Virus record (IMG/VR): IMGVR_UViG_3300031830_000007
Coordinates: 1-25,165 of that record
DNA length: 25,165 nucleotides
Strand: one strand, 5' to 3'
Source: a virus
A model generated the notes under the pieces. It did no database searches and was not told the DNA's origin. It saw only the letters and a list, made by a program, of their open reading frames with translations. The translations under genes and the position numbers were made by a program. Positions 2,699 to 21,604 of the stretch are shown piece after piece; within the stretch, counting starts at the first letter, position 1; the number at the start of each line of letters is the position of its first letter.

Positions 2699-3024
2699 AC
2701 ATGCTCCCCCTTTTCGCACCACCAGCGCAAGAAGCGCCACCAGGACAACGTCCGTTCGCCGATCTCGACCGGCAACTCGTACGTGCCCACCACCCTCAAC
2801 CGGTACGGATCCAGCTCGCTCACCAGCGCATCCGCCACCATGTCCGGCCGTTCGCCCAGCCGCCGCAACGCGATCTCCGCTTCGGCACCGCCGGAAAAGA
2901 CGAGAACCAGCGACTCCTTGCGGACGACATAGGCGACGACCACCAGGCCACGGTTCGCCAGATGCGTGCACAGCGTGTCCAGACCCGTCCGGTTCATCGC
3001 ACGTTCAGCCGATACCAGGACCAC
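2674..3024 (-). CDS. Small protein with Trp/Arg-rich C-terminus (116 aa)
   Basis: This is the last gene of the late operon. Residues 20-45 form an alternating hydrophobic stretch (around GLVVVAYVVRKESLVLVF), which reads as paired beta strands rather than a membrane helix. The C-terminus contains TLSWWRFLRWWCEKGEHVH; its WWRFLRW 7-mer recurs at the end of the zinc-ribbon protein at 6698-7105. GTG 3024, 6 nt after AGAAGGG and overlapping the endolysin by 20 nt, is preferred. ATG 2997 lacks a clear ribosome binding site but is the main alternative. The function is unknown. Its position after the endolysin and its amphipathic Trp/Arg tail would fit a membrane-active or host-takeover accessory, which is inference. 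The 3' end overlaps the opposing SWIM gene by 25 bp. Confidence 0.72.
   Translation of the reverse strand: MVLVSAERAMNRTGLDTLCTHLANRGLVVVAYVVRKESLVLVFSGGAEAEIALRRLGERPDMVADALVSELDPYRLRVVGTYELPVEIGERTLSWWRFLRWWCEKGEHVHAPPLKT
2687..2714 (+). terminator. Intrinsic terminator at the convergent junction
   Basis: GGGGGAGCATG (2687-2697) and CATGCTCCCCC (2700-2710) form an 11-bp perfect inverted repeat with at most a 4-6 nt functional loop, followed by TTTT. The SWIM stop codon is part of the structure. On the minus strand the stem is not followed by a T run, so it is a clear terminator only for plus-strand transcripts. The minus-strand operon reads through it to its own stop at 2674. Confidence 0.88.
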
Positions 3025-4378
3025 TGTAGCCCTTCTGCTTCGCCACTTCCGCACCGATCCGCCGCAGCAACACGTCATACCGCTCCGGCCACACCCCCGG
3101 GTGCCACTCGAACACCGCGCGCTCGAAATACTGCACCACGTGCGGCTTTCCAGCACGACCACAGCGCGGATCGTTACAAGCGATCGGCTCTTCCAGCTCG
3201 TTCGTCAACGGCAGACCGAAAATCGCGAGTCCGCCGTATTCCGACCAGAAGCGCCAGAATCCGCCACCGACGAACTTGCCTGTTTCCGGGAAGAACTTGC
3301 CATCTGCCATCTGTCCACCCGCTCCTTTCCGGTACGGCAGCACGAAGTCTTCCATCAACGTCCCCGGACAACTGGTCGGGCTCAGTTCCTTGTGGCCGAC
3401 CACACGCGACCGCGGGATACCGAGTTCATCGCAGAACCGCGACACGAACAGCCGCAAGGCGTTCAGCTGCGCCGGTGTCGCACGCTGCTCTCCGCCGATC
3501 GGCACCAACACGCTCAAGAACGTCTCGTTCTCTGGCCAACTGCCACAGTGCCACAACACCGCGTCCAGGTCGCGGCACTGCCACATTTCGCCGTTGGGGC
3601 CGATCGCGACATGGTACATCAACCCGTCACCGCGCGCCCCACCGCCCCAGTCACGATAGGTATGGTAGACCGCGTTCCGTACCACTTGTTGCCACGCAGA
3701 ACCCGAATCGGTCGCGTTCGCTACGGTGCCACCATTGTAGTGAACGACCACCCCTTGCTTCGGCCAAAACTTCGCTCTCGGCCCACCCCACGGGTTCGTC
3801 GCCAGCTCTTTCCGTTTGTCGATCAACCCTAACCGACGCGCCAGTTCCTCGACTTCCCGCATCGTCAGTTCCTCCTCTTCCGCGAGAAACTCCGCGACGA
3901 TCGCTGCGACCCGTGCCCCGTACACCGCCGACGGCGCCCACTTGCCACCCAGCTGCTCCACCGTCGGCGCACTACCCCGCTGGACCAGGTGCAGGCGCGG
4001 CGATACCACTGGATCGCCGGCGTCCTGCGGCGCCGGCCCACCAGCATAGGCAGCGAGGTGCTGGACGTGTGCCAGGATACCCGTAACGTCGTCCGGAAAA
4101 CGCGCGTGCGCTGCCGGATCGCTGTCGCTGCCACCCGCCGCCGTTTTCAAGCCGCACCAGTTGTGGTAGTCCGGTGGCACGACACCACCGTAATGCCCCC
4201 AGCCGGTCTCGTGCGCCGCCTGCGCCAAGGCGACTTCGGGTCGGACACGGTAGCGCGGTGCGATGGCGTAGTACAGGGCAATGACGTTCCGGTAGCGGGT
4301 ATGCGCACCTTTCCGCACGGCCACGCGAAAGACGGCTTGCGGGCGGGAACGGCTTTGACCCAAGATCGTTGTGCCCAT
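3005..4378 (-). CDS. Three-domain endolysin: glucosaminidase, amidase, wall-binding module (457 aa)
   Basis: Residues about 30-165 resemble a GH73-type N-acetylglucosaminidase; AAHETGWG supplies the likely catalytic Glu57. Residues about 205-345 form an N-acetylmuramoyl-L-alanine amidase (Amidase_2/PGRP) domain. Its expected zinc ligands are visible: His213 (VVVHYNGG), His329 (VVGHKELS) and Cys337 (TSCPG). Residues about 362-435 form a C-terminal module (FWRFWSEYGGLAIFGLPLT, then VVQYFERAVFEWHP) like the repeats of secreted Chloroflexota proteins, probably binding the wall. The enzyme would cut both the glycan and the peptide linkage of peptidoglycan at lysis. No signal peptide is seen, so export would depend on holins. 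ATG 4378 is 9 nt after GGAGG and is chosen over ATG 4384, which is only 3 nt away. Confidence 0.93.
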   Translation of the reverse strand: MGTTILGQSRSRPQAVFRVAVRKGAHTRYRNVIALYYAIAPRYRVRPEVALAQAAHETGWGHYGGVVPPDYHNWCGLKTAAGGSDSDPAAHARFPDDVTGILAHVQHLAAYAGGPAPQDAGDPVVSPRLHLVQRGSAPTVEQLGGKWAPSAVYGARVAAIVAEFLAEEEELTMREVEELARRLGLIDKRKELATNPWGGPRAKFWPKQGVVVHYNGGTVANATDSGSAWQQVVRNAVYHTYRDWGGGARGDGLMYHVAIGPNGEMWQCRDLDAVLWHCGSWPENETFLSVLVPIGGEQRATPAQLNALRLFVSRFCDELGIPRSRVVGHKELSPTSCPGTLMEDFVLPYRKGAGGQMADGKFFPETGKFVGGGFWRFWSEYGGLAIFGLPLTNELEEPIACNDPRCGRAGKPHVVQYFERAVFEWHPGVWPERYDVLLRRIGAEVAKQKGYSGPGIG

Positions 4379-4405
4379 GTTCATGAACCTCCCACCGTTT
4401 TCGGT

Positions 4406-5731
4406 TCATCCCCGTCGGCCGACAGACGCCTCCAGCACCGTCAGCACGACTGCGTACGCCAGCGGCGGCGGAACAGCGTTCCCGATCCATCTCGCCAGCT
4501 GTGTCCTGCTAGGCGCCGCACCGTCCGCTCGGACGAAGCGGAAGGAATCCGGAATACCCTGCAAACGCGCCGCTTCGTGAGGCGTGAGCGTGCGCGGGCG
4601 AGAAGGGTGCACGAATCTCCCCCTTCCCGGACTCATGAAACCGGTCGTGATCGCGCCAGCTGGCTTGTCCCAAGACAACCGACCGTACATGCTGGGATAC
4701 GTGTGGCCATCGCGGTGACACGGCGGGCGCAAACGATCCGGCAGCTCGTACGAATCGGTCTCGAACAGGTAAGCGATCCGGCGCTCGTTTTCGGGAGATA
4801 GATGTGTCGGCATGTCCAGAAAAGACCCGTCAGCGTCTTGCAGGTCTTTGATCGCCCACCGCACGTCCGGTGTCGGTAACTTCTCTAAACCGGCGAGCGT
4901 CCATTCCGACGGTGTCCCGTAGCGCGACGCCAAGATGAACAAGCGCCGCCTCGTCTGTGCTACGCCATACCGGCTGGCATCGGTCTGCACGCAGCACACT
5001 CGGTATCCCGCCAACTCGAGCGTCCGTACCGAGCGGCCGACAACGTCGTGCGTGTCCAGTCGCGCCGTCGCGACGTTTTCGATCACCACAGCGGGCGCTT
5101 CGAGCGCGATGGCCAGCGCGACCGCGTCGAGCATCAACAGGTTGCGCGGATCTCTGCGACGCGTGTGGTTGTTCAGGTTAGAGTGGCCTTCGCACGGCGG
5201 CCCGGCGAGCAGTAGGTCAAACTTCCCGACCAGCGGCCACAGTTGCGGTTCCGCCAGCCAAGACCGGTCAGGTAGGTCGTCGCCTGGAAGGTGTGCGGGC
5301 GAGCGAGAGAGCAAGCCACCGACGTCGCGTGCCAGCACCGCTGACGGCCGCAGGTTCTCTGCGTACACCTCCAGCGCAGCTGCGTCCATGTCGACTGCGA
5401 GCTCAAAGACCGGCGTCATACCAGCAGCCTTCACCGCTTCCGCGGCACCTAACGAGAGTCCACCGATACCGGAGAACAGGTCGACTATCCGAATCGGTGC
5501 ACCGCGCCCTTCGACTTCCACCAGGCCTCCCCGCAGATACGAGCGCCACCACCGTTTCCACGGCTCGATATCGCTACCTAGATCGGAGATGTCCCGCATT
5601 CTCGAGACCGTGTGCTGGTCGGCGATCTTCACCAGGCGCTCGAGGATCCCGCCAGGGTTGACAGAATAGGATTCTCGCTGTCCGCCCGCCACCAACGGTC
5701 GCATCGGGTCTCCAGGCACCTTGCCCCCCAT
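4406..5731 (-). CDS. C5 cytosine-specific DNA methyltransferase (441 aa)
   Basis: The canonical motifs appear in order: motif I DLFSGIGGLSLG (residues about 84-95, AdoMet binding), motif IV GPPCEGHS with catalytic Cys180, motif VI ENV (218-220), motif VIII QTRRRLF (259-265), motif IX with TPHEAARLQGIP and motif X IGNAVPPPLA near the C-terminus. The target recognition region between VIII and IX is about 100 residues, typical of single-specificity enzymes. About 80 residues precede motif I and are unassigned. The predicted reaction is AdoMet-dependent cytosine-5 methylation of duplex DNA; the target site cannot be read from the sequence. ATG 5731 lies 2 nt after the metallophosphoesterase stop (TGAAGATG), so translation is probably coupled. 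ATG 5704, 5 nt after GGAG, is the alternative. No cognate restriction enzyme of a known family is adjacent. Confidence 0.95.
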   Translation of the reverse strand: MGGKVPGDPMRPLVAGGQRESYSVNPGGILERLVKIADQHTVSRMRDISDLGSDIEPWKRWWRSYLRGGLVEVEGRGAPIRIVDLFSGIGGLSLGAAEAVKAAGMTPVFELAVDMDAAALEVYAENLRPSAVLARDVGGLLSRSPAHLPGDDLPDRSWLAEPQLWPLVGKFDLLLAGPPCEGHSNLNNHTRRRDPRNLLMLDAVALAIALEAPAVVIENVATARLDTHDVVGRSVRTLELAGYRVCCVQTDASRYGVAQTRRRLFILASRYGTPSEWTLAGLEKLPTPDVRWAIKDLQDADGSFLDMPTHLSPENERRIAYLFETDSYELPDRLRPPCHRDGHTYPSMYGRLSWDKPAGAITTGFMSPGRGRFVHPSRPRTLTPHEAARLQGIPDSFRFVRADGAAPSRTQLARWIGNAVPPPLAYAVVLTVLEASVGRRG

Positions 5732-5733
5732 CT

Positions 5734-6726
5734 TCACTGTTCCACCAGCTCCAATCCGAACTGCCACGTGATCGGTCGCCGGTCGCCGACCCCGAACAGG
5801 TGCCAGCGGTTCGCGTTCTGTCCACCCAAGACTTGCAGTACCCAGCTATCGTCCGTCACCGGCGTGCCGGTCAACAGGACACGCGTCCCGGCGATGTCCA
5901 TGTCGCCATAGGCATGGAAGTGGCCACAGCACAAGGCGGCGAAATCACCGATGACTGCTCGCCACCGCAAGACCCGCTGCGCCAACCCATACCACGGCAC
6001 ACCCTGATACATCCGCACCCCGTGTCCATGATACAGCAGGAACCGGTGCTTGCGGACAGTCACGATCCGCAGGAACGGATCCAGCCCTTCTTGCGCGTAC
6101 GACACCGGTATCCCGTCTCGTTCCAGGTGCAGCGCGAGATAGTGGTAGCAGGCGAGGTCCCAGCTGGCCGATTCGACGACCCTCTTTCCGGCCCGTCCAT
6201 GGTTTCCGGCGATCGCTTCCACCCGTACCGACCGCCAGACTCGCTTGAGCCGCCGCAGCCAGTCCGCCAGGTACGCAGCCACTTCCCACGCCTGCCGCAG
6301 CGGATCGCTGACTTCCTGGTGATGTGCCTGCGTCGGATAGATCTCCGATCCATCGTTCACGTCACCCAGCAGGCAGACGACTAGCTCGTCGATGTCGTAA
6401 GACGTGGACAGGAGGTCGTGGATCCGTTGCAGGCGCGGGATCAAGGCATCCATGCGGCGACGCAGGACGTCGGTATCGAAGCTGCTCGTCCGCTTCCCGT
6501 AATGCAGGTCGCTCGCCAAGAGCACCGCCGATTCTTTCTCGCGGTGTCCACTGGCACGTGCAGCATACTCGCCGTACGACTCGAGATACGGGTTGTCGAC
6601 CTTGTATTCGACGCGCCAGCGGCGCAAGGTGTTGCGCGAGATCCGGTAGCGGCGAGCGATTTCTGCATCGGGTAATGTCCGCAGGGCCTCCAGTAATTCA
6701 GGTGTCGGTTCTTTCCGCATCCCCAT
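5734..6726 (-). CDS. HTH-calcineurin-like metallophosphoesterase fusion (330 aa)
   Basis: Residues 12-43 form a helix-turn-helix (LPDAEIARRYRISRNTLRRW). Residues about 67-300 form a calcineurin-like phosphoesterase with all metal-site motifs: SDLHYGK (Asp73, His75), GDVND (121-125), GNHGR (174-178), HGHG (233-236) and GHFH (268-271). Mre11/SbcD nucleases and many other phosphohydrolases share this fold, so the substrate could be DNA ends, nicks, RNA or a nucleotide. The fused HTH favours a DNA substrate. No SbcC-like ATPase is encoded nearby. ATG 6726 is 7 nt after AGGGAG and overlaps the zinc-ribbon gene by 29 nt. The methyltransferase begins 2 nt after its stop, so the two are probably made together. 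HTH-bearing phosphoesterases do occur in phage genomes; the role here is not known. Confidence 0.92.
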   Translation of the reverse strand: MGMRKEPTPELLEALRTLPDAEIARRYRISRNTLRRWRVEYKVDNPYLESYGEYAARASGHREKESAVLLASDLHYGKRTSSFDTDVLRRRMDALIPRLQRIHDLLSTSYDIDELVVCLLGDVNDGSEIYPTQAHHQEVSDPLRQAWEVAAYLADWLRRLKRVWRSVRVEAIAGNHGRAGKRVVESASWDLACYHYLALHLERDGIPVSYAQEGLDPFLRIVTVRKHRFLLYHGHGVRMYQGVPWYGLAQRVLRWRAVIGDFAALCCGHFHAYGDMDIAGTRVLLTGTPVTDDSWVLQVLGGQNANRWHLFGVGDRRPITWQFGLELVEQ

Positions 6727-8761: not shown

Positions 8762-11700
8762 TTAGAGCGGCACGACAGACGACATGGTGATGATTGAGCG
8801 GACGGTCACTTCGACGTCGAAGCGCGCACCCGCCGCACCGACCCGCAGCTCGATCTGGTTGTTCTGCTGCACCGGGGTCAGGAACTGGGTCTGCAAGAAC
8901 TGGGTGATGTCCAGGTCCAGTTCGTTCGCGTCCCACGGTCCGCCTAACGCACTCGTGCGGTCGACACCGTTGATAAAAATCCGGATCTGTTTGCTGGATG
9001 GCAACGTAGACTCATAAATCCCGTACACCAGCGCGTGCGTGTGGTCGGCGACATAGTGCGAATGTGGTGCTGCGTTCGTCGTCGTCTGGCCGCTGACCGA
9101 ATGGCTGTGCGCAGGTATATTGACGTAATGCTGGTGCTCTTGTGCATAGAGTTCGGCGTTCGTCGGTGCCGCGGCGCCGCGACCGACGAACACGCCGTAG
9201 TCAACGCGAGCCGATGAACCATACGAAACGACTTGTTCTCTGCGCCCGGGATCCGACCATGTTTCGTTGTTCATCGTGCGCGCCCAGATCAGGTCGCCGA
9301 TGACGTCGGACGTGGTCGTCCCGCCACCACCAGCCTGTGTCGTGAAGGCATTGATCGAATGCGAATGCTCGCCGCTTGCTGTCGTCGTCTGGCCACCACC
9401 AGCTGCCGCGACCTGTACGTTGGATCGCAGTGGATGGCACGTGATGTGCAGCATCACGCGGTGCAAGAACCGGATTTCCGGGTCGTAGCGGACATTGATG
9501 ATGACCGGGTGCGTGCTGTCGATCGACCGGCGCAGTGGACCGTTCTGCCGCTCGAACGTGATGTGCTTCTGATGGACAGACAGCGCCCACAGCCGCTCGA
9601 CCACTTCGGACAGCGCGTCTTCGCCGCGTTCTGGCTCGGTATCCGACGACAGCTCGAATTCGATCTCTTCGACGTCGCCGCGGAAGTTGCGCTTGATACC
9701 CCGCACGAACGCTGTCGTGTCAATATCGACGATCACGCGCTTACCGTCGATATCTTCTGCGATCCCCTTGGCCAACAGGTGCACCGTCTGGCCGGGCCGG
9801 ATGTACCAGCCGCCGGTGAACGGATCACGCAATCGCACTGGGCCCAGAACCGACACTTCCCATTCCGTGCGCGGCTCCTTGTGCTCGTTCAGCCAGGCAA
9901 CAGCCAGTTCGTACAAGGTGTTCGCCGCTTCGCGGTAGGCTGCTGGCGAGTTCGCGATCGGTGCCACGTTCTTGAACGCCATGACACGCTCGCGCAAGCC
10001 ATAGGTCGCGATCGAGTCGTCGTCCTCGATGTAGTAATACGGTGTCCCGGTCGGCGTCGTTCCCGATCGGATCGGATAGGGTGACGTGCGATCCGACCAA
10101 CGGAGATCCAAGACGTTGATCCCTTCGCCAGCACCGAGCGGGATGAGGCGGTTAATGACTTCTTCGTCTCGGCGCGTGATCCGGATCTTTTGGATCGGTA
10201 TCGATGTGGGATCCAGATACGGTGGCACGGCCGGGTAGAGAAGCAGCCGGAACGGGCTGGCCGTGACCGTCGAGAACAGGGTGAGCGACTTGGTGTCGGC
10301 TTCGGGCCGCAAGTGCATCAGCTTCTGTTGCGCGACCTTGGCGATCGCTTCGAAACGCGTCGCTCCTTCGAAAATCGCCGTGACGAGCTCGCTGGCCTTC
10401 TCGACCGATGCTGTCCAGCCGGGTAACAGCAGTGTCGATACTGTCGCCCCCGTCGGTTGGCCGTCGACGATCCACGAGATCTTGGTCGTCTGCAGCGACA
10501 GCTCTCGTGCTAGGCCGTATCCGGACAATTCGACGACTGGACCGTCGCCTTCCAGCACCGTCCGCTTGGACGAGAAATATCCCGCGAAGACGATTCCTTC
10601 GCCCTGCCGGATCAGGCGGACGACCTTCCCGACGTCCAGCGCGTCAATATTGGCTGCAGTCACGGGAACCGAGACAGATATTTCACCGAGTTCACCAAGA
10701 TGCCACGTGTAGGACGCGGATAGGACAGGATAGACAGAGACGAAACCGGTTCCTTGGGCGACTTCCAGGCGCAGCGTCCCCAGTGGTGGCAGTGGTGGCG
10801 CAGGATGAACCAACAACGTGGCGCGACCGGTGGCCAGTGTCGCCGCGAGTCTGTTTCTCGAGGAAGAGACACTGGCGCTGGCCGATCCGCGCATGGAAAT
10901 CCCGAATCGGCGCAAATTACTGATTCTGGCCGCGATATTATCGGTTCGGCTGGCGTACACGGCGTGACCAGGCATTGTTATGTTTAGCCGTGAAGACAAA
11001 GCCGAAAAGCCAGAACTCGACGCGCTGGCAACAACTGGACCTGGTAGGCGGATAGATATCGATGAGCGCCCACTTGATTGTGTTCTGCCGATTGACCATC
11101 GGGCACTGTGGGCGATACAAGTTGACCTGAAAGCCAAAGCCGCGCGGTGAACCCCTCTTCTAGCAGCCCTGACGGCGCTGAACGATCTTCCAGCTAGTAC
11201 TGTTGTGGCGTCCCGCAAAACAGGTTCCTTGTATGCTTCGTTAACGGAAGCATAGCCAGTGCCCGAGGTTCCCCCCACCACATAACCGATGTCCGATATG
11301 GCGAAGGAGGCATGACCGACTCTCGCTGTCGGCATCGGTTCTTTGGTCGACCACGTGTTTGTTATCGGATCGTAGGCCTCATTGTTTGCATGGGGGGTGG
11401 ATGTATACCCGCCTACTGCATAACCGATGCCCGATATGGCGAAGGCAGCGGGATTCTCTCTATCTGTCGGCATCGGAGCCTTATCCGACCACGTGTTTAC
11501 TGAAGGGTTGTAAGCATAATTATTGGTAGTGGTGCTTTTGTATCCTCCCACGACATAGCCAATATCCGATACGACGAAAGCGCTGAAATGATAGCTGGGT
11601 CTCGGTATAGAAGCCTTAGTCAACCACGAATCTGTCACGGGGTCGTAGGCCTCGTTTACTGCAACCTGACTAGACGTGTACCCCCCTACTGTATATCCGA

Positions 11701-12049
11701 TGCCTGATATGGCGAAGCCAGCCGGACGGAAGCGTGCTGTCGGCATCGTTGCTTTGGTCGACCACGTATCCGTTGCAGGATTGTAAGCCTCGTTTGCTTG
11801 AGTGTTACTAGTCGACCCGTATCCACCTGCTACATAACCGATGCCTGATATGGCGAAGGCGGCGGAACCGGATCTCGCTGTCGGCATCGCCGCTTTAGTC
11901 GACCACGTGTTCGTCGCAGGGTTATAGGCCTCGTTTGTCGCAATTTGCGAAGGATTGCGTCCCCCCACCGCATAGCCGATATCCGATAGAACAAAGGTGG
12001 CAAGGTAGATTCTTGCCGTGGGTATGGGGGCTTTGGTGAGCCATGGCAT
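8762..12049 (-). CDS. Tail-tip protein: kelch propeller fused to a Gp37/Tal-like body with HxH tip (1095 aa)
   Basis: Residues 1-276 are six kelch motifs of 45-47 residues. Residues 277-420 are rich in Arg, Ser and Ala with degenerate short repeats. Residues about 424-835 resemble siphovirus tail proteins of the ReqiPepy6 Gp37-like type (start LRLEVAQGTGFVSVYPVLSA), placed where a tail-associated protein (Tal) is expected. Residues about 836-1095 hold five HxH motifs at 895, 972, 981, 996 and 1003, like metal-binding fibre tips, then a beta-rich end. ATG 12049 follows GGGGTGAT and lies 6 nt after the upstream stop. The protein is likely the host-contacting tip, with the propeller as an extra binding domain. 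The kelch part is poorer in G+C than its neighbours (27 of 60 bases in 11521-11580 against 37 of 60 in 9601-9660), which hints at acquisition. Confidence 0.9.
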   Translation of the reverse strand: MPWLTKAPIPTARIYLATFVLSDIGYAVGGRNPSQIATNEAYNPATNTWSTKAAMPTARSGSAAFAISGIGYVAGGYGSTSNTQANEAYNPATDTWSTKATMPTARFRPAGFAISGIGYTVGGYTSSQVAVNEAYDPVTDSWLTKASIPRPSYHFSAFVVSDIGYVVGGYKSTTTNNYAYNPSVNTWSDKAPMPTDRENPAAFAISGIGYAVGGYTSTPHANNEAYDPITNTWSTKEPMPTARVGHASFAISDIGYVVGGTSGTGYASVNEAYKEPVLRDATTVLAGRSFSAVRAARRGVHRAALAFRSTCIAHSARWSIGRTQSSGRSSISIRLPGPVVASASSSGFSALSSRLNITMPGHAVYASRTDNIAARISNLRRFGISMRGSASASVSSSRNRLAATLATGRATLLVHPAPPLPPLGTLRLEVAQGTGFVSVYPVLSASYTWHLGELGEISVSVPVTAANIDALDVGKVVRLIRQGEGIVFAGYFSSKRTVLEGDGPVVELSGYGLARELSLQTTKISWIVDGQPTGATVSTLLLPGWTASVEKASELVTAIFEGATRFEAIAKVAQQKLMHLRPEADTKSLTLFSTVTASPFRLLLYPAVPPYLDPTSIPIQKIRITRRDEEVINRLIPLGAGEGINVLDLRWSDRTSPYPIRSGTTPTGTPYYYIEDDDSIATYGLRERVMAFKNVAPIANSPAAYREAANTLYELAVAWLNEHKEPRTEWEVSVLGPVRLRDPFTGGWYIRPGQTVHLLAKGIAEDIDGKRVIVDIDTTAFVRGIKRNFRGDVEEIEFELSSDTEPERGEDALSEVVERLWALSVHQKHITFERQNGPLRRSIDSTHPVIINVRYDPEIRFLHRVMLHITCHPLRSNVQVAAAGGGQTTTASGEHSHSINAFTTQAGGGGTTTSDVIGDLIWARTMNNETWSDPGRREQVVSYGSSARVDYGVFVGRGAAAPTNAELYAQEHQHYVNIPAHSHSVSGQTTTNAAPHSHYVADHTHALVYGIYESTLPSSKQIRIFINGVDRTSALGGPWDANELDLDITQFLQTQFLTPVQQNNQIELRVGAAGARFDVEVTVRSIITMSSVVPL
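11222..12043 (-). repeat. Six tandem kelch repeats (about 138 bp each)
   Basis: Gly-Gly doublets fall at residues 29, 75, 122, 168, 213 and 259. Tryptophans fall at 3, 49, 95, 142, 187 and 233. Each unit contains NEAY/NYAY-(N/D)P before the Trp and IGY-x-x-GG. The first Trp stands at the N-terminus and the sixth unit lacks one, so the ring can close as a six-bladed propeller with a shared blade. The units remain similar at DNA level (for example CCGATATGGCGAAG-like cores). Confidence 0.9.
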
Positions 12050-12055
12050 AGTAGA

Positions 12056-12508
12056 TCACCCCAGCAATCGCTGCTCCACCAGGTCAGCAACCTGCCACCG
12101 CACAGCTTCTTCTACCAGCTCGTTGACATGTCGCAGCGCCATCTGTTCCAGTGCTTGTTCGTCGCGTTCCCCCTTGACAGGCTGGAAAATGAACACCTGT
12201 CCGTCCCGCGCAATCCAGTACGCTCCATCGCTCTCACTCATATTGTGGCGCGACCGCACGACATCTGCTGGTACACCGTTGATCGGTGACTCGTGGTCCC
12301 ACACCCCATACGTGTATCGCGCCATTTCTTCTCGATATAGTGCATCTTGGTCGATATCGTCCAGAATCGCCTGCACCCGCTGCACGAACTGGGCGGCCCC
12401 GCCAGCGAGGTCGCGTGCGAGTTGCAGGATAGCCTGCTTCTCTGGCACAGACAGCATGCGTAGGACGGTGACGCGGTTCGCGATCTTGACACGCTCCTGC
12501 TTCTGCAT
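12056..12508 (-). CDS. Unknown tail-module protein (150 aa)
   Basis: No family is recognised. The protein is largely alpha-helical and charged (for example KQAILQLARDLAGGAAQFVQ and EQMALRHVNELVEEAVRWQV), with a beta-rich central segment around GAYWIARDGQVFIFQPVKGE. ATG 12508 is well placed, 6 nt after GGAGG. It starts 1 nt after the stop of the gene upstream (TGATATG) and ends 6 nt before the kelch tail-tip gene. That position suggests an assembly chaperone or structural partner for the tail tip. No membrane segment or enzyme motif is present. Confidence 0.82.
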   Translation of the reverse strand: MQKQERVKIANRVTVLRMLSVPEKQAILQLARDLAGGAAQFVQRVQAILDDIDQDALYREEMARYTYGVWDHESPINGVPADVVRSRHNMSESDGAYWIARDGQVFIFQPVKGERDEQALEQMALRHVNELVEEAVRWQVADLVEQRLLG

Positions 12509-12509
12509 A

Positions 12510-13094
12510 TCAGTCCTCCCTGATCTGCAGTTGTCCTGCCGGGATCCGCAGCTGGTCGCCGCTCAACATTTCGCGGAATACCAGCAACGTCGCCCAGAAC
12601 CACGCATTGCCACCGGTGCTCGCATCCCAAATCGTCACCAGCGCGATCTGCCCCCAGTCAGCTGTGGCTACCGGGAAGGTAATATCGGTGCCATTCGATT
12701 TCGTGTCCGATGATGTTGCTGGGAAGTTCGTCGTGTTGTTCGTCACCGCGACGCGTGCGTAACCACCACCGGATATCTCTGCGGGGAACGTTCCTGCTTC
12801 GAGAAAGTTCGTGGCTTCCGTCCAGACCGCTGATCCGTCGTTGACCGTCGCGTTATCCGTATCCGGCCAGTTCGGCTCGGATGCCCCTGACGTACCCGCT
12901 GTCGTGCAGCGATAGATGCGGTTCGGAGTTGATGTTGTCGGGGTCACGAACTGGCCAACCGAATAGGCCTGGTTCGGTCGCCACCGCGGCACTGCGTGCA
13001 GACCAATGTGCCACGTCGAAGGAACGGTCTGGGAAGCGCCGAAGAGGACGTTCAGCACACGGGTTTCGCCAGCATTGGTCTTCGAGCCAGGCAT
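12510..13094 (-). CDS. Gp80-like tail protein with inserted carbohydrate-binding-like segment (194 aa)
   Basis: The outer parts match a common phage tail-protein pattern. The N-terminus has TNAGETRVLNVLFGA and TWHIGLHAVP. The C-terminal half continues with EISGGGYARVAVTNN, ITFPVATADWGQIALVTIWD and a final SGDQLRIPAGQLQI. Between them (residues about 38-95) lies a segment with YSVGQFVTP, then IYRCTTAGTSGASEPNWP and VNDGSAVWTE. This is the pattern of small CBM5/12-like phage modules. It therefore probably lies at the tail tip or fibre and contacts saccharides. ATG 13094 is taken although its GAGGTGG site is somewhat distant. The gene sits between the distal tail protein and the tail tip. Confidence 0.84.
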   Translation of the reverse strand: MPGSKTNAGETRVLNVLFGASQTVPSTWHIGLHAVPRWRPNQAYSVGQFVTPTTSTPNRIYRCTTAGTSGASEPNWPDTDNATVNDGSAVWTEATNFLEAGTFPAEISGGGYARVAVTNNTTNFPATSSDTKSNGTDITFPVATADWGQIALVTIWDASTGGNAWFWATLLVFREMLSGDQLRIPAGQLQIRED

Positions 13095-13139: not shown

Positions 13140-13967
13140 CTACGCATACGTATCATACCAGGTTATCGTTATGGTCGCAGCAGGGCAACCAGAGGCGGAC
13201 AAGATGTTCGCTGTCGGTTCTAGGCGAAGTATTGTCGCCTGGAGCGAGCCGACAACCAGTGCAGGTGTCACGTCATTCCATGTGGTTCCCCCATCGCTCG
13301 ATTCCAAGACAATCCATCTTCCAGCCAGAATGCGCAACCGATGGCGATCCGTTGAGCCAACCCGATTGACTGTCACGCGCTCACCAGTCACGTAGTTTTC
13401 GATCGTCGGTGAGGCGTAACCGTTTGCTGCAGTTGCGACAATATCGATCGTGAGATCCTTGACAGGGAGATTGCCAGAGATGCGCACGATATGCATGCCG
13501 TTTCCCGGCAGTACCACCGACGATGCTGATTGTGCCATCCAGTCCGAAAGCCGCCGAAAGGTCAGCGCTACTGAGAAGTGGCGCAAGTTCTCGACACCGA
13601 ACGTCGTTGTCGCTAAGCCCATCGGCCGAACATAAGCCCAGTAATGGTTGCCCAAGGCATCCCGCACCCATAGTCGACCACGACCGATTCTCGCCAGCTT
13701 GCTGCGCATATCCATGTACTGCTGCCAGGCGTCTTGTGCATCCTGGCCGACAATGACGAAGCGGATCGTTTCTTCGGTTGCGCCACGTGGTGCCGGTCGC
13801 GTCCCGAGAAGGTCAAACGCATAGTCCGCCAGTGGCACGTCGGCAAACGCTGTTCGGAGCTCACCCCCTGTCTCCCATTCCATGGCATATGTCGGGAACG
13901 TGATAACGATGTCGCCAGCTAGGCTCTCCAAACGGATAGGCCATCCCGGATACGCAGCCATGCTCAT
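13140..13967 (-). CDS. Distal tail protein, Dit-like (275 aa)
   Basis: Position is the main argument: in siphophages the gene right after the tape measure usually encodes the distal tail (hub) protein. The content fits. There is an N-terminal beta-rich domain, a central segment with GVENLRHFSVALTFRRLSDW, and a C-terminal beta sandwich-like half ending in ATITITWYDT. ATG 13967 overlaps the tape-measure stop by 4 nt (ATGA), so translation is coupled; an in-frame ATG at 13961 is possible. The protein would form the hexameric ring joining the tail tube to the tip complex. The predicted fold is inferred from context and strand-rich composition. Confidence 0.8.
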   Translation of the reverse strand: MSMAAYPGWPIRLESLAGDIVITFPTYAMEWETGGELRTAFADVPLADYAFDLLGTRPAPRGATEETIRFVIVGQDAQDAWQQYMDMRSKLARIGRGRLWVRDALGNHYWAYVRPMGLATTTFGVENLRHFSVALTFRRLSDWMAQSASSVVLPGNGMHIVRISGNLPVKDLTIDIVATAANGYASPTIENYVTGERVTVNRVGSTDRHRLRILAGRWIVLESSDGGTTWNDVTPALVVGSLQATILRLEPTANILSASGCPAATITITWYDTYA

Positions 13968-16900
13968 CGCAGCCCCCTGCGCCGCAGCTCTTGCGCGATC
14001 AGGTAGCCGATGTCGTGGACGACACGATTCGCTTGCTCTTCGTCATGCGCATTGATCGTCACTGGCCCGTGGAAATTGATATCGACGTCGATTCCCCCAC
14101 CGACCGCACCTGCTGCGGCAATATCCCTTGCGGGCACGACGTATTCTGGCCCCCGTTCCCCGAAAAGGTATCGGCTGCCAGAAAAGAGACCCGCACCGAT
14201 GACCGGTTCGCGCAGCAAGCCACCGGCACCGAAGGCAATGTACTTGCGTGGATCGACCGGTATCCCGTGCTCGCGGATCTCGAAGTGCAGGTGATCACCG
14301 GTCGAGTATCCCGTGCTGTCAACGGTGCCGATCTGCTGCTTGCCAGCTATTTGTTGGCCAACTGACACCAGAATGCGTTCCAAGTGTGCATAGTACGTCG
14401 TCAAGTCACCCTTGTGTGCGAGGATGACCAGGTTGCCGTAACCGCCTGCCGACCAACCGGCAAACGTCACTGTCCCGCGCCGTGCGGCGTACACCGGGGT
14501 GCCGCGCGCAGCGGCAAGGTCGATACCGCTATGCGGCTTGCCACCGTACGCACCAGACTTGGCGAACTCCGTCCAGCCGAATTCCTGTGTGATGACGTAG
14601 TGCTCCAGTGGCCGGTACCACTTGTCATCCAGTTTGGATTCTAGCTTCTTCAGAAGATCCCTGACGAAATCCCTGATCCAGCCGAGCACACGTTCGCGCA
14701 GGACAGACGCGATACTGCCTGCCCAGCCGGACGTGTCGATGTTGAAGAACGACGTCAACTGACTGACGACCCAGTCGGCACCCTTCGAGAGCCACTCTTC
14801 GAGAATTTCTGCCGCTGTGCCGACCACCGAGGATACGGTGGACACGATCGTGTCAATGAGGCCACCCATCGGCTGGAAACCGGGTGCATCGACTGCGTGT
14901 TGCATGAAGCGCGCCGTGACGTCAGCCGGTAACACCTTTGCTCCGCGCGGCAAAAGAACCAGCTCTGGACCCTCTTCGCCAACAAGCGCCAAGCCACCAG
15001 GGTGATAATCAGTGCCCTCGGCATACGCGCGTACACCGCGACTGTAACCCGGTATGCGTGGAATATCTGTCCAGTAAATGTTCCGCAGGTAATCGATTCC
15101 GAGCTTTTCACCGACCCAGCGCAACGCCGCAGCGATGGCGCGCTCCACGGCATTGAAAGCGTCGATCAGCGCGTTGAGCGGAGCGATCGCGAAGTTGTAT
15201 GCGGAACCCAGGATGGACTCGATGTTGTCGCGAAACGTCTTGAACGGCCATTCTAGAGCATCGTAGATTCCCTGCTTGAGTCCTTCGAAGAAGCGCTTCA
15301 GTTGCTCCCAAATGGACGTCGCCTTATTCCAGACCTCGTCCCAAATGCGTGCGGCCGTGTCGCGCAGCTTTTCAAACGGCCACTTGAGCGCATCCAGCAT
15401 AGCCTGCTTGGCATCCTCGAAGTGCCGCTTCAAATCGTCCCAGATCGTGGTCGCTTTCCTCTTGATCTCGTCCCACAAGTCCGCCAGCTTGTCCCGAGTC
15501 TCGGTCACCTTCTGTAGGGCGGTATCTTTGAGACCGGTGACTCTTTCGATGACAAAGGTCTTGATGCGCTCCCAGATCTCCTGCACCTTCGTCAGGATAG
15601 CGTTCCAGCGCTCTTCCAGCGCGGCGCGCAGGTCGGAGATGAGATCCTTGCCCCGCGCAATAAGTTCGGTCACCCTGCCGATGACGGTATCCTTGACGGA
15701 AGTCCAGATGTTTGTCACTGTGTTCAGGATGCTCTGCCAGATGCCGACCAGGCGATCCCGCAACCCGGTAATGATGCTGATGATCTTTTCGACCAGATCG
15801 GGAATCAACGAGCGGCCGACCAGCCAGTCATAGATCTTGCGGAAGATACCGGTGACGATGTCCCAGATTTTGCCGAGGACCGCTGCGAGGCTACCTACCA
15901 GGCCGCCGAGGATACCGAGAATCGCTTCCTTGAATCCTTCGACGATCTGCTTCGCCCCGTCCCATGCGCGCTGCCAGTCACCGGTGAAGACGCCGACCAG
16001 GACATTGACCAGACCCATGATGACGTTGGCGACACCTTCGATAATCCTGAGACCGGCCTGAATCCCCTCGAAGAACAGTTTAACGATCAGCGGCAGCAGT
16101 ATCTGAACCACCTCAGCCAGCAGGCGGAACGCTACCAGCAAGGCTCCGCCGACAATCCCAGCGATGACCCCTAGCGCCGGCGCGACCGCTGCGAACGTTT
16201 CCTTGAGCTGCTGCCAGGTCGGGCCCAGCTCGTCGCGAATGACCGTCGCCGTGTCCTTGAAGGCTTGCTTGATGCTGTCAAAGGCGGGCGCGAGCATGTT
16301 TTTGATGAAGCCAGCGACCGTCTCGATCGTCCCGCGGTTTTCCTCGAACAGTCGGAACAGCGTTTCCAGTGGTTTCTGTAGCGGCCCCAACGACTTCTCG
16401 GGGTCCAATGCGCCTGCCACGACGGCCGAGCGCAGCTCACTCAGTGCTTCGCCGAGATGGCGACGGGCCTCGACAGCTAGAGCATCCCAATCAATGCCGC
16501 CGATCAGGTTCTTCAGCCAGTTGAAGAGGTGCTCTGCCCCACCGGTGAGCGCACCCCAAGCCGACGCAAGCGCATCGCCTGCAGTCTGCGCCACCTCTCC
16601 CCAGTTCACCTGGTCGAAGAGCTTAACGAGCCATTCCGCGATTCGGTCGGCTACCTCAGTTACGACGCTCCAGGCCGTCGCTAGCGCTGTCGCTGCGTCC
16701 TGCGCGACCTGTTGCCAGTCGATGGACGCGAACCAGCTAAGTACCGCCCCGATCAGTTTGACTTCGGTGGACAGCACCGCGACCAGCAAGTCACCGATCG
16801 TGCGCCCAAGTTCACCCCAGTCGATTTGGTTGAAGGTATCCACGAGCCACCGGTAGAGGCGGTCGAGGCCGGTAGTGATCGCCCCCCAAGCGGCCAGGAG

Positions 16901-19900
16901 CGCGTCTTGTGCTTGCTGTGCGACCTGGGCCCAGTCGATGGAGGTGAAAAAGTCGAGGAACCAGGCGAAGAGGCGGCCGACCGGAGCAGCGACCGCTGCC
17001 AGTGCACTGGTAAACAGGTCGATGGCAGTGGAAGCCACCGCGCTCCAGTCAATCTCGGTCAGCTTGTTCCAAAGCTTTGTTCCCAGTTCGACTAGCGCCG
17101 TGCCAAGCGCGGATAAGCCTTCGCTGATCGTCTTGCCGACCTCAGACCAGTCCACCTGCTTGATGGCGTTGACGATGTTCTGACCCAGCTGTAGGAAAGC
17201 CCCGCCGAGCGACTTCAGGATGTCGCCGCCGACATCGAAGAGGGTTCGGATACCGCCAACCAGCCCCTGCTCGCTGAACGCCTGCTGGATAGCCTGAAGG
17301 CCTTCCAAGATCTGTTTGGCAACGGGCACGAAGATGTCACGAATGCCGAACCAGTTCTTGGAGAAGGCCTGCCACACCAAGGTAACGAGATTGACGAAAC
17401 CCCAGAAGCCGCCGAAAAGACCTTGGAAGAGGCCGGTGACGATGAGCATCGGCGCCTTGAGAGCGGCGAAGCCGAGTTGTAGCGCTCCCAGGCCAACGGA
17501 CAACGCCTTGATGGGGTTCAGGACGGACATGAATATCCCGACCAAAGATCCGAACCCGCTGGCAATCCCGCCAGCTACTTGGCCGATGCGCGTAAACCAT
17601 CCAACGACGCCACCCAGGACAGCTAGCCAGTTGACAGAAGTAATGACGCCAATGATCGTGCGCCATGCTGCGACGATAGCAGCAGTAGCGCGCTGGATCC
17701 CTGGCATGGACTTTATGAAGCCGCTTATCGCATTGATGACTGTCGAGAACGCTTTGGTTACGATTTGCGGAAAGCTGCGTATCGCGCTGATCGCTGCCGA
17801 AAACGCAGCCGTTACCGCGCCACCGAAGGTCTTCAGCCACCCGACGATGGTGTTCAGGATGGCCGCCCAGTTTCCGGTCGCGATCGCACCGATAGCGGTA
17901 CGCAGCGCTCCAAAAACACTGCCGACCACGCCCTGGATCTTTGGAAACAGCGCCAGGAGACTGCCTATCGCTGTGGTTACTGCCGAGAATGCCTTTGTTG
18001 CGAGTCCACCGAGTTGCGATAGCCACCCGGTGATGGTACCCAGGATGGCCGACCAACCTCCAGCAGCGATCGCACCAACAGCTGTACGCAACGCTCCGAA
18101 TATGCTGGCCACCGCGCCTTGGATCTTCGGTAGAAGTGCCAAGAACTTCCGTATCGCGCCAGCGGCCGCCGAGAACTCCTTCTTTACAGTTTGACCGAAT
18201 TGCAATAGGGTTGTGCGGATTTTCCCCAGGGTAGTTTTCAGTTGTCCGGTCGCGACAGCGCCAGCGATCGCACGCAGCGCGCCAACAATGACGTACAGAA
18301 CCTCGGCGGCGCGCTGTGTCGCACCATACACCAGGAGACTCACCGCGCTGGCAGTTGCTGTGAAACCCTTCTGCACGGCACCCAGCATTGGTATCAACGC
18401 TGCGAAGGCACCAATGACTTGACCGCTGAGCACTTTGGCGAGGGCAACGTTATACGCAATCGCCGGGGCCAGTGCGACATTGAGGTTCTGCAACAGGGCG
18501 GTGAACGGCAGCATGGCAGCGCGCAAACCGAGGAACGCGACGCCGAGCGTTGTTGCGGTGATCACGAAGCGAGAGACAAGACCTGCCACCTCAGTGAAGA
18601 ATGGAGCGAACGGTTGGACTGCCTGCATGATGCGCTGGCGCGTCTCAGCAGCGATACGCTCGAACCGCTTCCGCTGCTCCTCGGCTTGCTCGAACACCGA
18701 TGGGTCGGCTAGCGTCCACTGGGTTGCCATCTCCATGGATGACTCTTGTGCCTGCTTGCCGATTTGCTGTAGCGATTCGCGCAATGCGTCGTAACCAGCA
18801 GCGAGCGCTTCGACCTTCTTCGACCATTCCTCGACCAGGTCGCGCTGCCGCGCAGTGATCTCGGCAATCTTCGCGTGCTCCTCGCGCAGCTTCTTGAGAT
18901 TCTCGATGTGCGCGCCCATCGCTTGCTGTGCTTCGGCGAAGGTCATGGCCTTCCCGGCGCCCAGCGCTTCGTCAGCCATCTTCCGGAGCTGCTCGCGTAG
19001 GGGCTCGACCTTGAGCTCGCGCTCCAGGTCGACCTTCTTTGCCTGCGCCTCCAATCGGCGGATCTCGTTTTCAACGCCCCTTATCTCTTCTTCTGGAGCA
19101 CCGGCCAGAATCAGCTCCACCCTACGGAGTTCGAGCTGTTTGATCTGCTTTTCGAGTTGCCTCAGTTGCTCAATGTAGGGCTGCTCTTCTGCCAGCGGTG
19201 CTTCGACTAAGTCACGGATAGCCCGTTCTGTATTGCGGATAGCCGACTCAACGTCGCGCAGCAACCGCTCGTATTCGCGCAGGACAGCCTGCTGTTCGCG
19301 CAGTGCTGTGCGCGCATCGTCGAGGGCACTGCCGTAGCGCTTGATCGCTTCTTTGAAGTCTTCGGCACTCGCGCGACCTGACGCGATCTGGCGAGCCAGT
19401 TCGCGCACCTCCATCGCAGACTTGGACGCTGCCCCTGGCAGGAGCGACTCCATAACACCAGTCGCGCGGCGTAGGACTTCTTCAGCATACGCCGAACGCC
19501 TGGCTAGCTCGTCCAATCCACTGGTGTCGACGACGAACGGTGTGGTGACGATGTCCTGAATAGCGCGACGCAGGATATTGAACGCACCAGCTGCGGCGAT
19601 AGCGGGAACCCGCATCTTCTCCAGTCCGTCGCGTGTCCGTGAGGACTGGTTCTGTAGTTCTGCCAGCTGGTTGCGCAACTCATCGATAGCGTTACGCAAC
19701 TCGTCCATCGCATTGCGCAACGCATCGGCTTGGTCTTCCAGTGCTGCAACGACCGCTTGTTGCTGCTCGACCAGTCGCTGCCAATACTCTTGTTCTCTTC
19801 GCAAGTTAGCCAGTTCACTGGCAAATTCAGAGACGCGGCGGATCGCTTCACCGAACGACAGCGCTTGGTTCAGGCCAAGCGCGGCATTGGCTGCCTCCTC

Positions 19901-21604
19901 CAGCTGTTCCCGGAGTGGGCCGATGTTCAGGTCGCGCTCGAGATCGACCATCTCGGCCCGCTTGCTCAGAATTTCGATCTTTGTCGTTAGCTCATCGATG
20001 AACGCAGCAGGTACTCCGGAGAACTCGAGGCGCAGTTTTTGCAAGCGCAGCCGTTTGATCTCGCGGTCGTACTGCTTCAGTTGGTCGAGAAAAGGAAGTT
20101 CTTCAGTCAGCTTGGCGCGAGCGAGGTCCCTGATTGCACTTTCCAGTTCGCGTATGCGGTCGGTGACCCGGCGCAAGTTATCCCGGTACTCGTCCAGGAT
20201 CTTGCGCTCGCGCCTGAGCTGCATCTCGATGTTTCGTAGCTGGATACCAAGGGTGCGTAGCTCGATCTGCAATAGCCGGATCTGGATACGGATCGCTTCG
20301 ATCTGCCCCGTTACGCTGCCCAAGTCGTCGAATGAATCAATGATCTGGCCTACACCGTTTTCGACGTCATCGACGAGCGACGGCGAGTGACGAGCGAACG
20401 GGTTGATCCACTGCAGCGCTTCATAAATAGCCTGACCCAGGGCCAACGCGAACGACGCTGCTTCGTAGAGCGCGTCGCGAAGCACGCCAACGAAGCCGTA
20501 AAGGCCAGCCACGACGACCTGCACGGCTCCATTGACCTTCGCTGCCCAATCGGTCAACAGCGCCTCACTGGACACGAAATTGCCGATCTCGACCAGTGCA
20601 TCGCGAAATGCCTGGAATAGCGGTTGGAACCCTTGTGCGAGGAAAAACTGGATCCCTTCGCGGACGGCCTCTATTGCTCCCGTCCACGTCCGCATAATCG
20701 TGTCGCTCATGTCGCCAAGGCGGTTCTCCGACCAGGCGACCAGACCTTCGATGAACGTCTGGGCATCGACTTGGCGCTTCTCGACCATTTCCATGGCCTG
20801 CGCCACAGAAACACCCAGGGTGTCGGCCAGGATCTGCCACGCCGGTATACCAGCATTGGTCAGCTGTCGCATCTCCTCACCGACCACCTTGGTGCGTTGT
20901 GCCATCTGGAACAACGCCAGCGAGACGCGTTCGAAGACGGCTGCCGAACCACCGAAGGCAGCAGTGATGTTGACGATCGCGCCCAAGATGCGCGGTAGCG
21001 CTTCAGCCGGGGCTCCCGAAGCAGCAAGATAGTTCAGCGCTTTCGCAAGATCTTGAATCCCGTAAGGGGATTTGGCCGCAAGCGAGACAAGATAGGACAG
21101 AACTTGGTTCGCCTTTTCGACCGAACCGTACAGCGTCGTCAGCCGGATCTGCAGCAGTTCAAGGCTCGCGTTGAGATCGAATACCGATTCACGCCATGTC
21201 GTGAACACCGAACCGGCGACCTGCAGGGCCTTCAAGGCGACACCGAACTCTAGCGTAATGAGCATGACGCGACCGATGCGCGTGCTCATGGTGCTGAAGA
21301 TGCCGCCCAGGTCGACCATCTCTTCGGCGACGGTCACCGCGGTCTTCTGCACGTGCTGCAGCGAACTACTGAGGGACTGGATCTGCGGTGCAGCACCGCG
21401 TGCCGCCGCACCAGCTCGCTGCGTCGCCTGGCCGAACGACTCCATGGCCTGGGCGCCACGCAGTGCACTGGCGGCCGCGCGGTTCGTGGCCTCCATACCG
21501 GACATGAAATTCTTGATCGCTTCCTGTGTCCGGCCCAGTGCCTGCTCAACACCTTGCGCTTGCGCCTGAATCAGCACCTTGAGCTTCGCGAGCGTGTCCG
21601 CCAC
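13964..21604 (-). CDS. Tape measure protein with C-terminal M23 peptidase (2546 aa)
   Basis: Residues 1-400 hold a tape-measure N-terminal domain (for example LQIRLTTLYGSVEKANQVLS). Residues about 435-950 are coiled coil in two homologous halves. Hydrophobic and repeat regions follow to about 1900, then Trp-rich helical repeats to about 2130. The C-terminal part has two glycine-rich segments, VGEEGPELVLLPRG and FGERGPEYVVPARD. Between these lies an M23/LytM peptidase (about 2335-2457) with His2358-x3-Asp2362, and HLHFE giving His2438 and His2440. The protein sets tail length and is ejected; the peptidase would cut host peptidoglycan during DNA entry. At about 0.15 nm per residue the tail would be near 380 nm if fully used. 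The start is GTG 21604, 10 nt after AAAGGAGG. Confidence 0.96.
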   Translation of the reverse strand: MADTLAKLKVLIQAQAQGVEQALGRTQEAIKNFMSGMEATNRAAASALRGAQAMESFGQATQRAGAAARGAAPQIQSLSSSLQHVQKTAVTVAEEMVDLGGIFSTMSTRIGRVMLITLEFGVALKALQVAGSVFTTWRESVFDLNASLELLQIRLTTLYGSVEKANQVLSYLVSLAAKSPYGIQDLAKALNYLAASGAPAEALPRILGAIVNITAAFGGSAAVFERVSLALFQMAQRTKVVGEEMRQLTNAGIPAWQILADTLGVSVAQAMEMVEKRQVDAQTFIEGLVAWSENRLGDMSDTIMRTWTGAIEAVREGIQFFLAQGFQPLFQAFRDALVEIGNFVSSEALLTDWAAKVNGAVQVVVAGLYGFVGVLRDALYEAASFALALGQAIYEALQWINPFARHSPSLVDDVENGVGQIIDSFDDLGSVTGQIEAIRIQIRLLQIELRTLGIQLRNIEMQLRRERKILDEYRDNLRRVTDRIRELESAIRDLARAKLTEELPFLDQLKQYDREIKRLRLQKLRLEFSGVPAAFIDELTTKIEILSKRAEMVDLERDLNIGPLREQLEEAANAALGLNQALSFGEAIRRVSEFASELANLRREQEYWQRLVEQQQAVVAALEDQADALRNAMDELRNAIDELRNQLAELQNQSSRTRDGLEKMRVPAIAAAGAFNILRRAIQDIVTTPFVVDTSGLDELARRSAYAEEVLRRATGVMESLLPGAASKSAMEVRELARQIASGRASAEDFKEAIKRYGSALDDARTALREQQAVLREYERLLRDVESAIRNTERAIRDLVEAPLAEEQPYIEQLRQLEKQIKQLELRRVELILAGAPEEEIRGVENEIRRLEAQAKKVDLERELKVEPLREQLRKMADEALGAGKAMTFAEAQQAMGAHIENLKKLREEHAKIAEITARQRDLVEEWSKKVEALAAGYDALRESLQQIGKQAQESSMEMATQWTLADPSVFEQAEEQRKRFERIAAETRQRIMQAVQPFAPFFTEVAGLVSRFVITATTLGVAFLGLRAAMLPFTALLQNLNVALAPAIAYNVALAKVLSGQVIGAFAALIPMLGAVQKGFTATASAVSLLVYGATQRAAEVLYVIVGALRAIAGAVATGQLKTTLGKIRTTLLQFGQTVKKEFSAAAGAIRKFLALLPKIQGAVASIFGALRTAVGAIAAGGWSAILGTITGWLSQLGGLATKAFSAVTTAIGSLLALFPKIQGVVGSVFGALRTAIGAIATGNWAAILNTIVGWLKTFGGAVTAAFSAAISAIRSFPQIVTKAFSTVINAISGFIKSMPGIQRATAAIVAAWRTIIGVITSVNWLAVLGGVVGWFTRIGQVAGGIASGFGSLVGIFMSVLNPIKALSVGLGALQLGFAALKAPMLIVTGLFQGLFGGFWGFVNLVTLVWQAFSKNWFGIRDIFVPVAKQILEGLQAIQQAFSEQGLVGGIRTLFDVGGDILKSLGGAFLQLGQNIVNAIKQVDWSEVGKTISEGLSALGTALVELGTKLWNKLTEIDWSAVASTAIDLFTSALAAVAAPVGRLFAWFLDFFTSIDWAQVAQQAQDALLAAWGAITTGLDRLYRWLVDTFNQIDWGELGRTIGDLLVAVLSTEVKLIGAVLSWFASIDWQQVAQDAATALATAWSVVTEVADRIAEWLVKLFDQVNWGEVAQTAGDALASAWGALTGGAEHLFNWLKNLIGGIDWDALAVEARRHLGEALSELRSAVVAGALDPEKSLGPLQKPLETLFRLFEENRGTIETVAGFIKNMLAPAFDSIKQAFKDTATVIRDELGPTWQQLKETFAAVAPALGVIAGIVGGALLVAFRLLAEVVQILLPLIVKLFFEGIQAGLRIIEGVANVIMGLVNVLVGVFTGDWQRAWDGAKQIVEGFKEAILGILGGLVGSLAAVLGKIWDIVTGIFRKIYDWLVGRSLIPDLVEKIISIITGLRDRLVGIWQSILNTVTNIWTSVKDTVIGRVTELIARGKDLISDLRAALEERWNAILTKVQEIWERIKTFVIERVTGLKDTALQKVTETRDKLADLWDEIKRKATTIWDDLKRHFEDAKQAMLDALKWPFEKLRDTAARIWDEVWNKATSIWEQLKRFFEGLKQGIYDALEWPFKTFRDNIESILGSAYNFAIAPLNALIDAFNAVERAIAAALRWVGEKLGIDYLRNIYWTDIPRIPGYSRGVRAYAEGTDYHPGGLALVGEEGPELVLLPRGAKVLPADVTARFMQHAVDAPGFQPMGGLIDTIVSTVSSVVGTAAEILEEWLSKGADWVVSQLTSFFNIDTSGWAGSIASVLRERVLGWIRDFVRDLLKKLESKLDDKWYRPLEHYVITQEFGWTEFAKSGAYGGKPHSGIDLAAARGTPVYAARRGTVTFAGWSAGGYGNLVILAHKGDLTTYYAHLERILVSVGQQIAGKQQIGTVDSTGYSTGDHLHFEIREHGIPVDPRKYIAFGAGGLLREPVIGAGLFSGSRYLFGERGPEYVVPARDIAAAGAVGGGIDVDINFHGPVTINAHDEEQANRVVHDIGYLIAQELRRRGLR
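16485..17152 (-). repeat. Seven tandem (D/N)W repeats in the tape measure
   Basis: Residues 1485-1706 contain DW or NW at the start of seven consecutive units of 34-38 residues, for example IDWSAVASTAIDLF, IDWAQVAQQAQDAL and IDWQQVAQDAATAL. Later Trp residues recur within the units (AFAWFL/YRWLV/LSWF-like). The units are periodic helical segments, as expected for a ruler. Confidence 0.9.
17585..18130 (-). repeat. Second tape-measure repeat family (KIQG units)
   Basis: Residues about 1159-1340 contain PKIQGAVASIFGALRTAVG, then 62 residues later PKIQGVVGSVFGALRTAIG, then a diverged PGIQRATAAIVAAWRTIIG about 80 residues on. Each is followed by a W-x(1-2)-(A/V)-(I/V)-L and GW(L/F) pattern. The units are hydrophobic and distinct from the (D/N)W family. 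Confidence 0.85.
18890..20167 (-). repeat. Duplicated coiled-coil module in the tape measure
   Basis: Residues about 490-590 and 795-895 align without gaps at an offset of 305 residues. Anchors are AIRDL (490 and 795) and DLERDLNIGPLREQL against DLERELKVEPLREQL (554 and 859), followed by LSFGEA against MTFAEA. This is an internal duplication of a coiled-coil block. Confidence 0.88.

Follow-up and report, generated by a model that had tools for sequence, protein, structure and literature searches.

In siphophages, the parts that bind receptors usually sit on separate fibers or at the distal end of the tail spike. The window analyzed here, that is, the whole stretch of DNA (a 25,165-base virus record, possibly fragmentary), holds a tail-tip gene whose product begins with kelch repeats and continues into a tail hub, which raises the question of what a propeller does in front of a hub. 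The best explanation, which is considered likely, is a tail hub bearing an exchangeable N-terminal kelch adsorption head that has a dedicated partner.

The gene and its neighborhood

The kelch–hub gene, 8762–12049(−), where (−) marks the minus strand, is an uninterrupted open reading frame of 1095 aa with an ATG start and no internal stops; GGGGTGA stands just 5′ of the ATG, and the stop of the preceding gene is 7 nt away. It takes a hub-type position, past the tape measure and between Dit and the lysis genes, in a series that runs tape measure, Dit-like, Gp80-like, partner, kelch–hub, holin, and lysin. The tape measure gene, 13964–21604(−), recognized by domain and family matches, encodes a very long protein (2546 aa), which carries an M23 peptidase domain close to its end; a 186-bp imperfect tandem repeat (17835–18175) lies within the gene. 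The Dit-like distal tail protein, 13140–13967(−), was assigned by position and has homologs in contigs L094, L175, L177, and L272 (29–38% identity, E down to 2e-47 by tblastn). Upstream of the partner gene, 12056–12508(−), which encodes 150 aa, lies a gene for a Gp80-like tail or fiber protein, 12510–13094(−), matching Pfam Gp80 at E = 7e-28. The endolysin, 3005–4384(−), has Glucosaminidase and Amidase_2 domains, and shares 54–56% identity with the L175 and L177 lysins in its second half. A C5 cytosine DNA methyltransferase gene, 4406–5767(−), has the lysin gene on one side and, on the other, a phosphoesterase/exonuclease gene (5734–6726) whose product starts with a helix-turn-helix. A megablast search of the window against cultured phages gave no match, and relatives picked by endolysin (L005–L008) yielded no useful tail genes.

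A six-bladed propeller at the N-terminus

The kelch part of the protein consists of six units of 45–47 residues, within the 44–56 residues typical of the kelch repeat, with Gly-Gly in every unit and periodic aromatics, namely Trp at residues 3, 49, 96, 142, 187, and 233. Unit 1 (residues 3–48; 11906–12043(−)) was delimited by sequence and AlphaFold2 strands; unit 2 (49–95; 11765–11905(−)), unit 3 (96–141; 11627–11764(−)), unit 4 (142–186; 11492–11626(−)), and unit 5 (187–232; 11354–11491(−)) by Pfam, repeat analysis, and AlphaFold2 strands; and unit 6 (233–278; 11216–11353(−)), which has no closing Trp strand of its own, by repeat analysis and AlphaFold2 strands. Self-match at lags of 40–51 residues is 0.31, compared with at most 0.15 across 5000 shuffles, and Pfam recognizes Kelch_1 (E = 3.1e-29), Kelch_4 (1e-22), and a whole-propeller model (1.4e-19) in the kelch–hub protein. 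The six periodic repeats that an earlier note had read in this gene are thus borne out.

The fold was predicted from residues 1–295 with an alignment of 42 kelch sequences, and this separate model alone was used because a mixed full-length alignment modeled the kelch part poorly. AlphaFold2 returned a mean pLDDT of 95.2 and a pTM of 0.90, with five full four-stranded blades and a sixth that has three strands of its own, leaving the strand at residues 3–5 free. Since the last unit is three-stranded and this strand is available, the ring appears to close via the N-terminus, the first strand of unit 1 completing blade 6, a reading based on the strand list together with the structural matches. The top PDB matches (TM 0.8–0.86) are all six-bladed kelch propellers, comprising KLHL/KEAP1 domains and designed SAKe propellers. 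Residues 3–278 are accordingly predicted to form a closed six-bladed kelch propeller whose N-terminal strand finishes the last blade, just as the earlier note had supposed when it called for a structure prediction of this part.

An alternative is an enzyme head, resembling galactose oxidase or N-acetylneuraminate epimerase, that would act on surface glycans. A weak match to NANM (E = 7.5e-5, below the Pfam cut-off) and annotation names such as 'galactose oxidase' lean in this direction, but the blade repeats resemble one another, have short loops, and carry no additional insertions, and the best structural matches are kelch domains with a binding function, along with designed SAKe propellers, so that an enzymatic head is regarded as very unlikely.

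Linker, hub, and C-terminal spike

The propeller is followed by an Ala/Ser/Arg-rich linker (residues 279–421; 10787–11215(−)), which matches no family and is predicted to be disordered, with pLDDT of 26–39 over most of its length. The tail-hub domain of the gp27/Mu gp44/Tal type (residues 422–822; 9584–10786(−)) was identified by structure matches, alignment, and an HMM match at residues 426–836. In the full-length model, residues 422 to about 821 contain the two tube-like domains of the gp27/gp44 fold and align with MuSo2 3cdd (VIA-align Z 23.3), Mu gp44 (21.8), the monocin tip (20.9), 80alpha Tal (19.6), and T4 gp27 (17.3). The full-length monomer model has a pTM of 0.46, and the geometry of the full-length protein and of the trimer is without confident prediction. 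The C-terminal part (residues 823–1095; 8765–9583(−)), which comprises a stretch rich in Gly and HxH along with a C-terminal beta domain, was delimited by alignment and by phrog_4311, which matches residues 619–1088 at E = 1.3e-27. The NCBIfam model TIGR01665 gave no match to the protein up to E = 0.1, and Pfam PF14594 (Sipho_Gp37) gave none in the window and a weak one in L177 (E = 8e-4, below cut-off). To judge from its sequence, the protein would be a distant relative of the TIGR01665 tail spikes, outside formal membership.

An assembly artefact, or a stretch yielding two separate translation products, would make kelch and hub truly separate genes. In line with this, GC at third codon positions (GC3) is 0.55 for kelch plus linker (0.54 for the linker alone) versus 0.75 for the hub, the linker has no coding preference in favor of its own frame, and kelch stands alone in many phages. 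Against it, the frame is open end to end, whereas the other reading frames of the linker hold stops; in-frame internal starts near the hub were inspected and none has a Shine-Dalgarno-like sequence; and the same order in one frame is found in L175 and L177, which are independent contigs from other metagenomes. Separate genes are therefore extremely improbable. Within the linker, GC peaks at codon position 2. A separate coding frame inside the linker was considered and rejected, since stops interrupt the other frames and the Ala/Ser/Arg composition accounts for the GC at position 2.

Fusion and replacement of heads among relatives

With the tail-spike part alone as query, no relative was recovered from viral contigs, and an alignment with phiEf11-type proteins was required to recover hub relatives in IMG/VR. 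The resulting hub-family scan gave 80 loci, in which, except for L094, the hub lies no more than about 60 residues from the start of the stop-to-stop frame, or the gene is cut or broken; most of the approximately 75 other members found begin straight with the hub. Kelch scans and narrower scans brought in the fusions of L175/L179 and L176/L177. The former is 1491 residues long and consists of two propellers with a CarboxypepD_reg domain between them, followed by the hub, and the latter, of 1217 residues, of one propeller, CarboxypepD_reg, a linker, and the hub. The two propellers of L175 (5649–7800) differ in that the first has diverged blades (26% mutual identity) and the second is nearly uniform. 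Dit-like, Gp80-like, partner, downstream, and lysin genes are syntenic in the window, L175, and L177. The fusion is thus present in three phages, as the earlier note had suggested be sought.

L094 belongs to a sister phage whose hub is 49% identical to that of the window but whose head, of 529 residues, is not kelch; no kelch was found across its 34.6 kb. This head (L094, 4414–6000) is made of roughly three repeats of about 130 residues with 'STGNQ..VGFAPDVAIFL' as well as 'DTGTLTL' linker repeats, and has no family match. In the hub tree, L177 falls outside a group of the window with (L094, L175), each fork having 99–100% support, and L094 is nested within the fusion clade (support 100/99). 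The kelch domains of the window, L177, and the second propeller of L175 cluster in a quick tree (SH-aLRT 92). The simplest history that we infer is an ancestral kelch head in the clade, replaced in L094, with an extra propeller gained in L175. The drop in GC3 from hub to kelch is not present in L177, so a later head swap in the window from a lower-GC donor is possible. Taken together, the kelch head looks like an exchangeable module, as within one hub clade there may be one propeller, two propellers, or another beta-rich head.

It should be noted that the earlier note named kelch as a separate gene, with no fusion, in related phages as a finding that would speak against its reading. This holds for more distant phages only, many of which encode kelch as its own gene near tail genes, often with a partner gene after it; in the closest kelch-bearing relatives the two are fused.

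Variable loops and the role of the head

Identity among the six blades of the window is 0.55–0.92 in the strands, 0.70 in the AB loop, and 0.36 in the CD loop (largely because the last unit has a different ending), and falls to 0.23 in the BC loop and to 0.04 over the final three DA-loop residues. In L177 and the second propeller of L175, variability is also highest at the DA end, the BC loop, and a two-residue AB turn. In KLHL20, it is the BC and DA loops that give the substrate face its shape (PMC6720452). The variable DA and BC loops may thus mark the ligand face, and a binding head whose frame stays constant while its face changes would be expected to show such a pattern. The proposal of a receptor-binding-like kelch head on a Tal-type tail protein gains from the predicted fold, the recurrent fusion, and this one-face variability. 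Also in its favor, stand-alone kelch genes adjoin tail-tip genes in other phages.

One point against it is that a different virion protein might be what the variable face binds. The propeller would then be an internal protein-docking module for the partner or another fiber, making no host contact. The usual ligands of kelch domains are indeed proteins or peptides, genetic linkage ties the 150-aa partner to kelch, and a Gp80-like fiber gene is nearby. Yet it is mostly the face loops that vary, as one would sooner expect with a changing ligand than with an unchanging partner in the virion, and L094 swaps the whole head for an unrelated one while retaining the hub and other tail genes. A docking role is therefore considered unlikely. 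It is also conceivable that the head is a relic of recombination with no present role and that the C-terminal spike does the binding, given that most family members found function headless; every blade, however, has retained the framework residues, with variation in the loops, and every clade member seen keeps some large N-terminal head, which renders a relic hardly credible.

For the adsorption head, the following arrangement is proposed. The protein would be the trimeric tail hub, or tail spike, of a siphophage, with the gp27-like core as a threefold ring at the tail tip and the His-rich C-terminus as the central spike, so that three propellers would be displayed at the tip, each on a flexible tether. 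The variable DA and BC loops, which together form one face of the ring, would be supported by the conserved framework of the blades, and this face would most likely bind a host-surface molecule, bringing the tip to the cell.

A partner gene family linked to kelch

The partner found no match in Pfam or PHROG family searches, with no firm PHROG, but is 35–41% identical to the gene at the same position in L175 and L177. An HMM seeded from these three genes and from neighbors of stand-alone kelch genes matches 41 of the 79 viral kelch loci, some of which are near-duplicates and some cut, and the match nearly always directly adjoins the kelch gene, downstream of separate kelch genes and upstream in the fusion phages. 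The same HMM matches none of the 80 hub-family loci and none of the 79 bacterial kelch loci, and the gene is absent from the kelch-less sister contig L094. When the partner alone was used for a scan, eight loci were obtained, every one beside a kelch gene and one of them new. About half of the viral kelch loci lack the partner; this set includes non-tail genes and loci truncated at contig ends. Family members have about 135–150 aa and a core 'ERARYRVEIWDKxSPINGVP...YLIYIDG', and are also found at L181 (7919–8320), L178 (1447–1863), and L002 (4276–4689). No match was found among 393 genomes of one Chloroflexota class, in a search that had no positive control, or among cultured phages by tblastn. 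The position recalls that of fiber-plus-chaperone gene pairs, and the product is most likely a dedicated partner of the kelch head, acting as a folding or assembly factor or as a second adhesion subunit.

The likely host

Among 400 genomes from the phylum of L025 (Chloroflexi), one related hub was found at E = 2e-69, and a second in another genome of the same class at E = 1.7e-48 (L272, 8114–10207, and L273, 82–3609(−)). Both are extended N-terminally by about 270–300 residues without kelch, and the hub with E = 2e-69 adjoins a related Dit-like gene. These extensions are taken as other heads in the same arrangement. The hub gave weak partial matches only against 398 genomes from the phylum of L026. 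A Chloroflexota host for the phage of the window is likely.

Comparison with known systems

The closest known counterparts are the TIGR01665 put_anti_recept spikes, including Enterococcus phiEf11 gp21 and those of Bacillus vB_BhaS-171 and Caldibacillus CBP1, with which the hub, the Gly-/HxH-rich stretch, and the beta domain align over residues 426–1095. phiEf11 and BhaS-171 match TIGR01665, whereas the window protein aligns to them yet misses the model; moreover, phiEf11-type spikes start at the hub, whereas here 421 residues with a kelch propeller come before it. The hubs of MuSo2 (3cdd), Mu (1wru), and 80alpha Tal (6v8i) share the fold of residues 422–820 (Z 17–23) and have no N-terminal head. 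As the alignment to most of these solved hubs starts close to their first residue (chain positions about 1–15 in most rows), the 421 residues preceding the hub are an addition.

Propellers serve adsorption elsewhere. In Staphylococcus phages phi11 and 80alpha, the receptor-binding protein has a propeller closed by an N-terminal strand, with wall teichoic acid as the proposed ligand; that of phi11 is five-bladed and forms the receptor-binding platform (PMC4901313). Like the window protein, this is a beta-propeller in a siphophage tail with N-terminal strand closure; unlike it, the propeller is five-bladed and non-kelch, and is encoded by a separate gene past the tail tip with its own coiled-coil stem. 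PRD1 P2 and the seven-bladed PhiKZ gp131C, cited in the same paper as suspected receptor-binding parts (PMC4901313), differ from the window in propeller class and position. Kelch repeats themselves have been met in phages. Phage CBB has kelch proteins, of which CBB_552 was found in virions, and the authors of that study call kelch unusual in phages (PMC5259590); these proteins are encoded by separate genes without hub fusion. In Myxococcus phage Mx1, a kelch gene comes after baseplate J, again separate and not fused to a hub, and in Brevibacillus phage Jimmer a separate kelch gene with a signal-peptide-like start lies outside the tail cluster. A tail-fiber protein of Paenibacillus phage phiERICV has kelch repeats 34% identical to those of the window and has a weak relative of the partner gene after it, but its baseplate genes are of the contractile type and the kelch lies towards the C-terminus of the fiber protein, not on a hub. 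Among open-licence papers, none was found that describes a fusion of kelch with a tail hub. Both kelch in phage tail proteins (phiERICV, Mx1, CBB) and propeller heads as separate fibers are thus already known, whereas the placement before the hub, the swapping of heads among close relatives, and the partner family linked to kelch appear to be new.

Implications

A broader reading, held tentatively and at somewhat less than even confidence, is that in a siphophage lineage, probably of Chloroflexota, the N-terminus of the hub serves as a dock for exchangeable heads, and that kelch heads need a chaperone or co-adhesin partner across unrelated phages. A propeller before the hub would put adhesion on the very protein that gates the tube, a point relevant to the way in which binding sets off the release of DNA. 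With its stable framework and its variable face loops, the propeller is naturally suited as a binding scaffold, and the partner gene offers a testable marker of kelch-headed phages and a candidate assembly factor. Finally, the swap of heads among close relatives would aid in understanding the host range of the poorly sampled phages of Chloroflexota.
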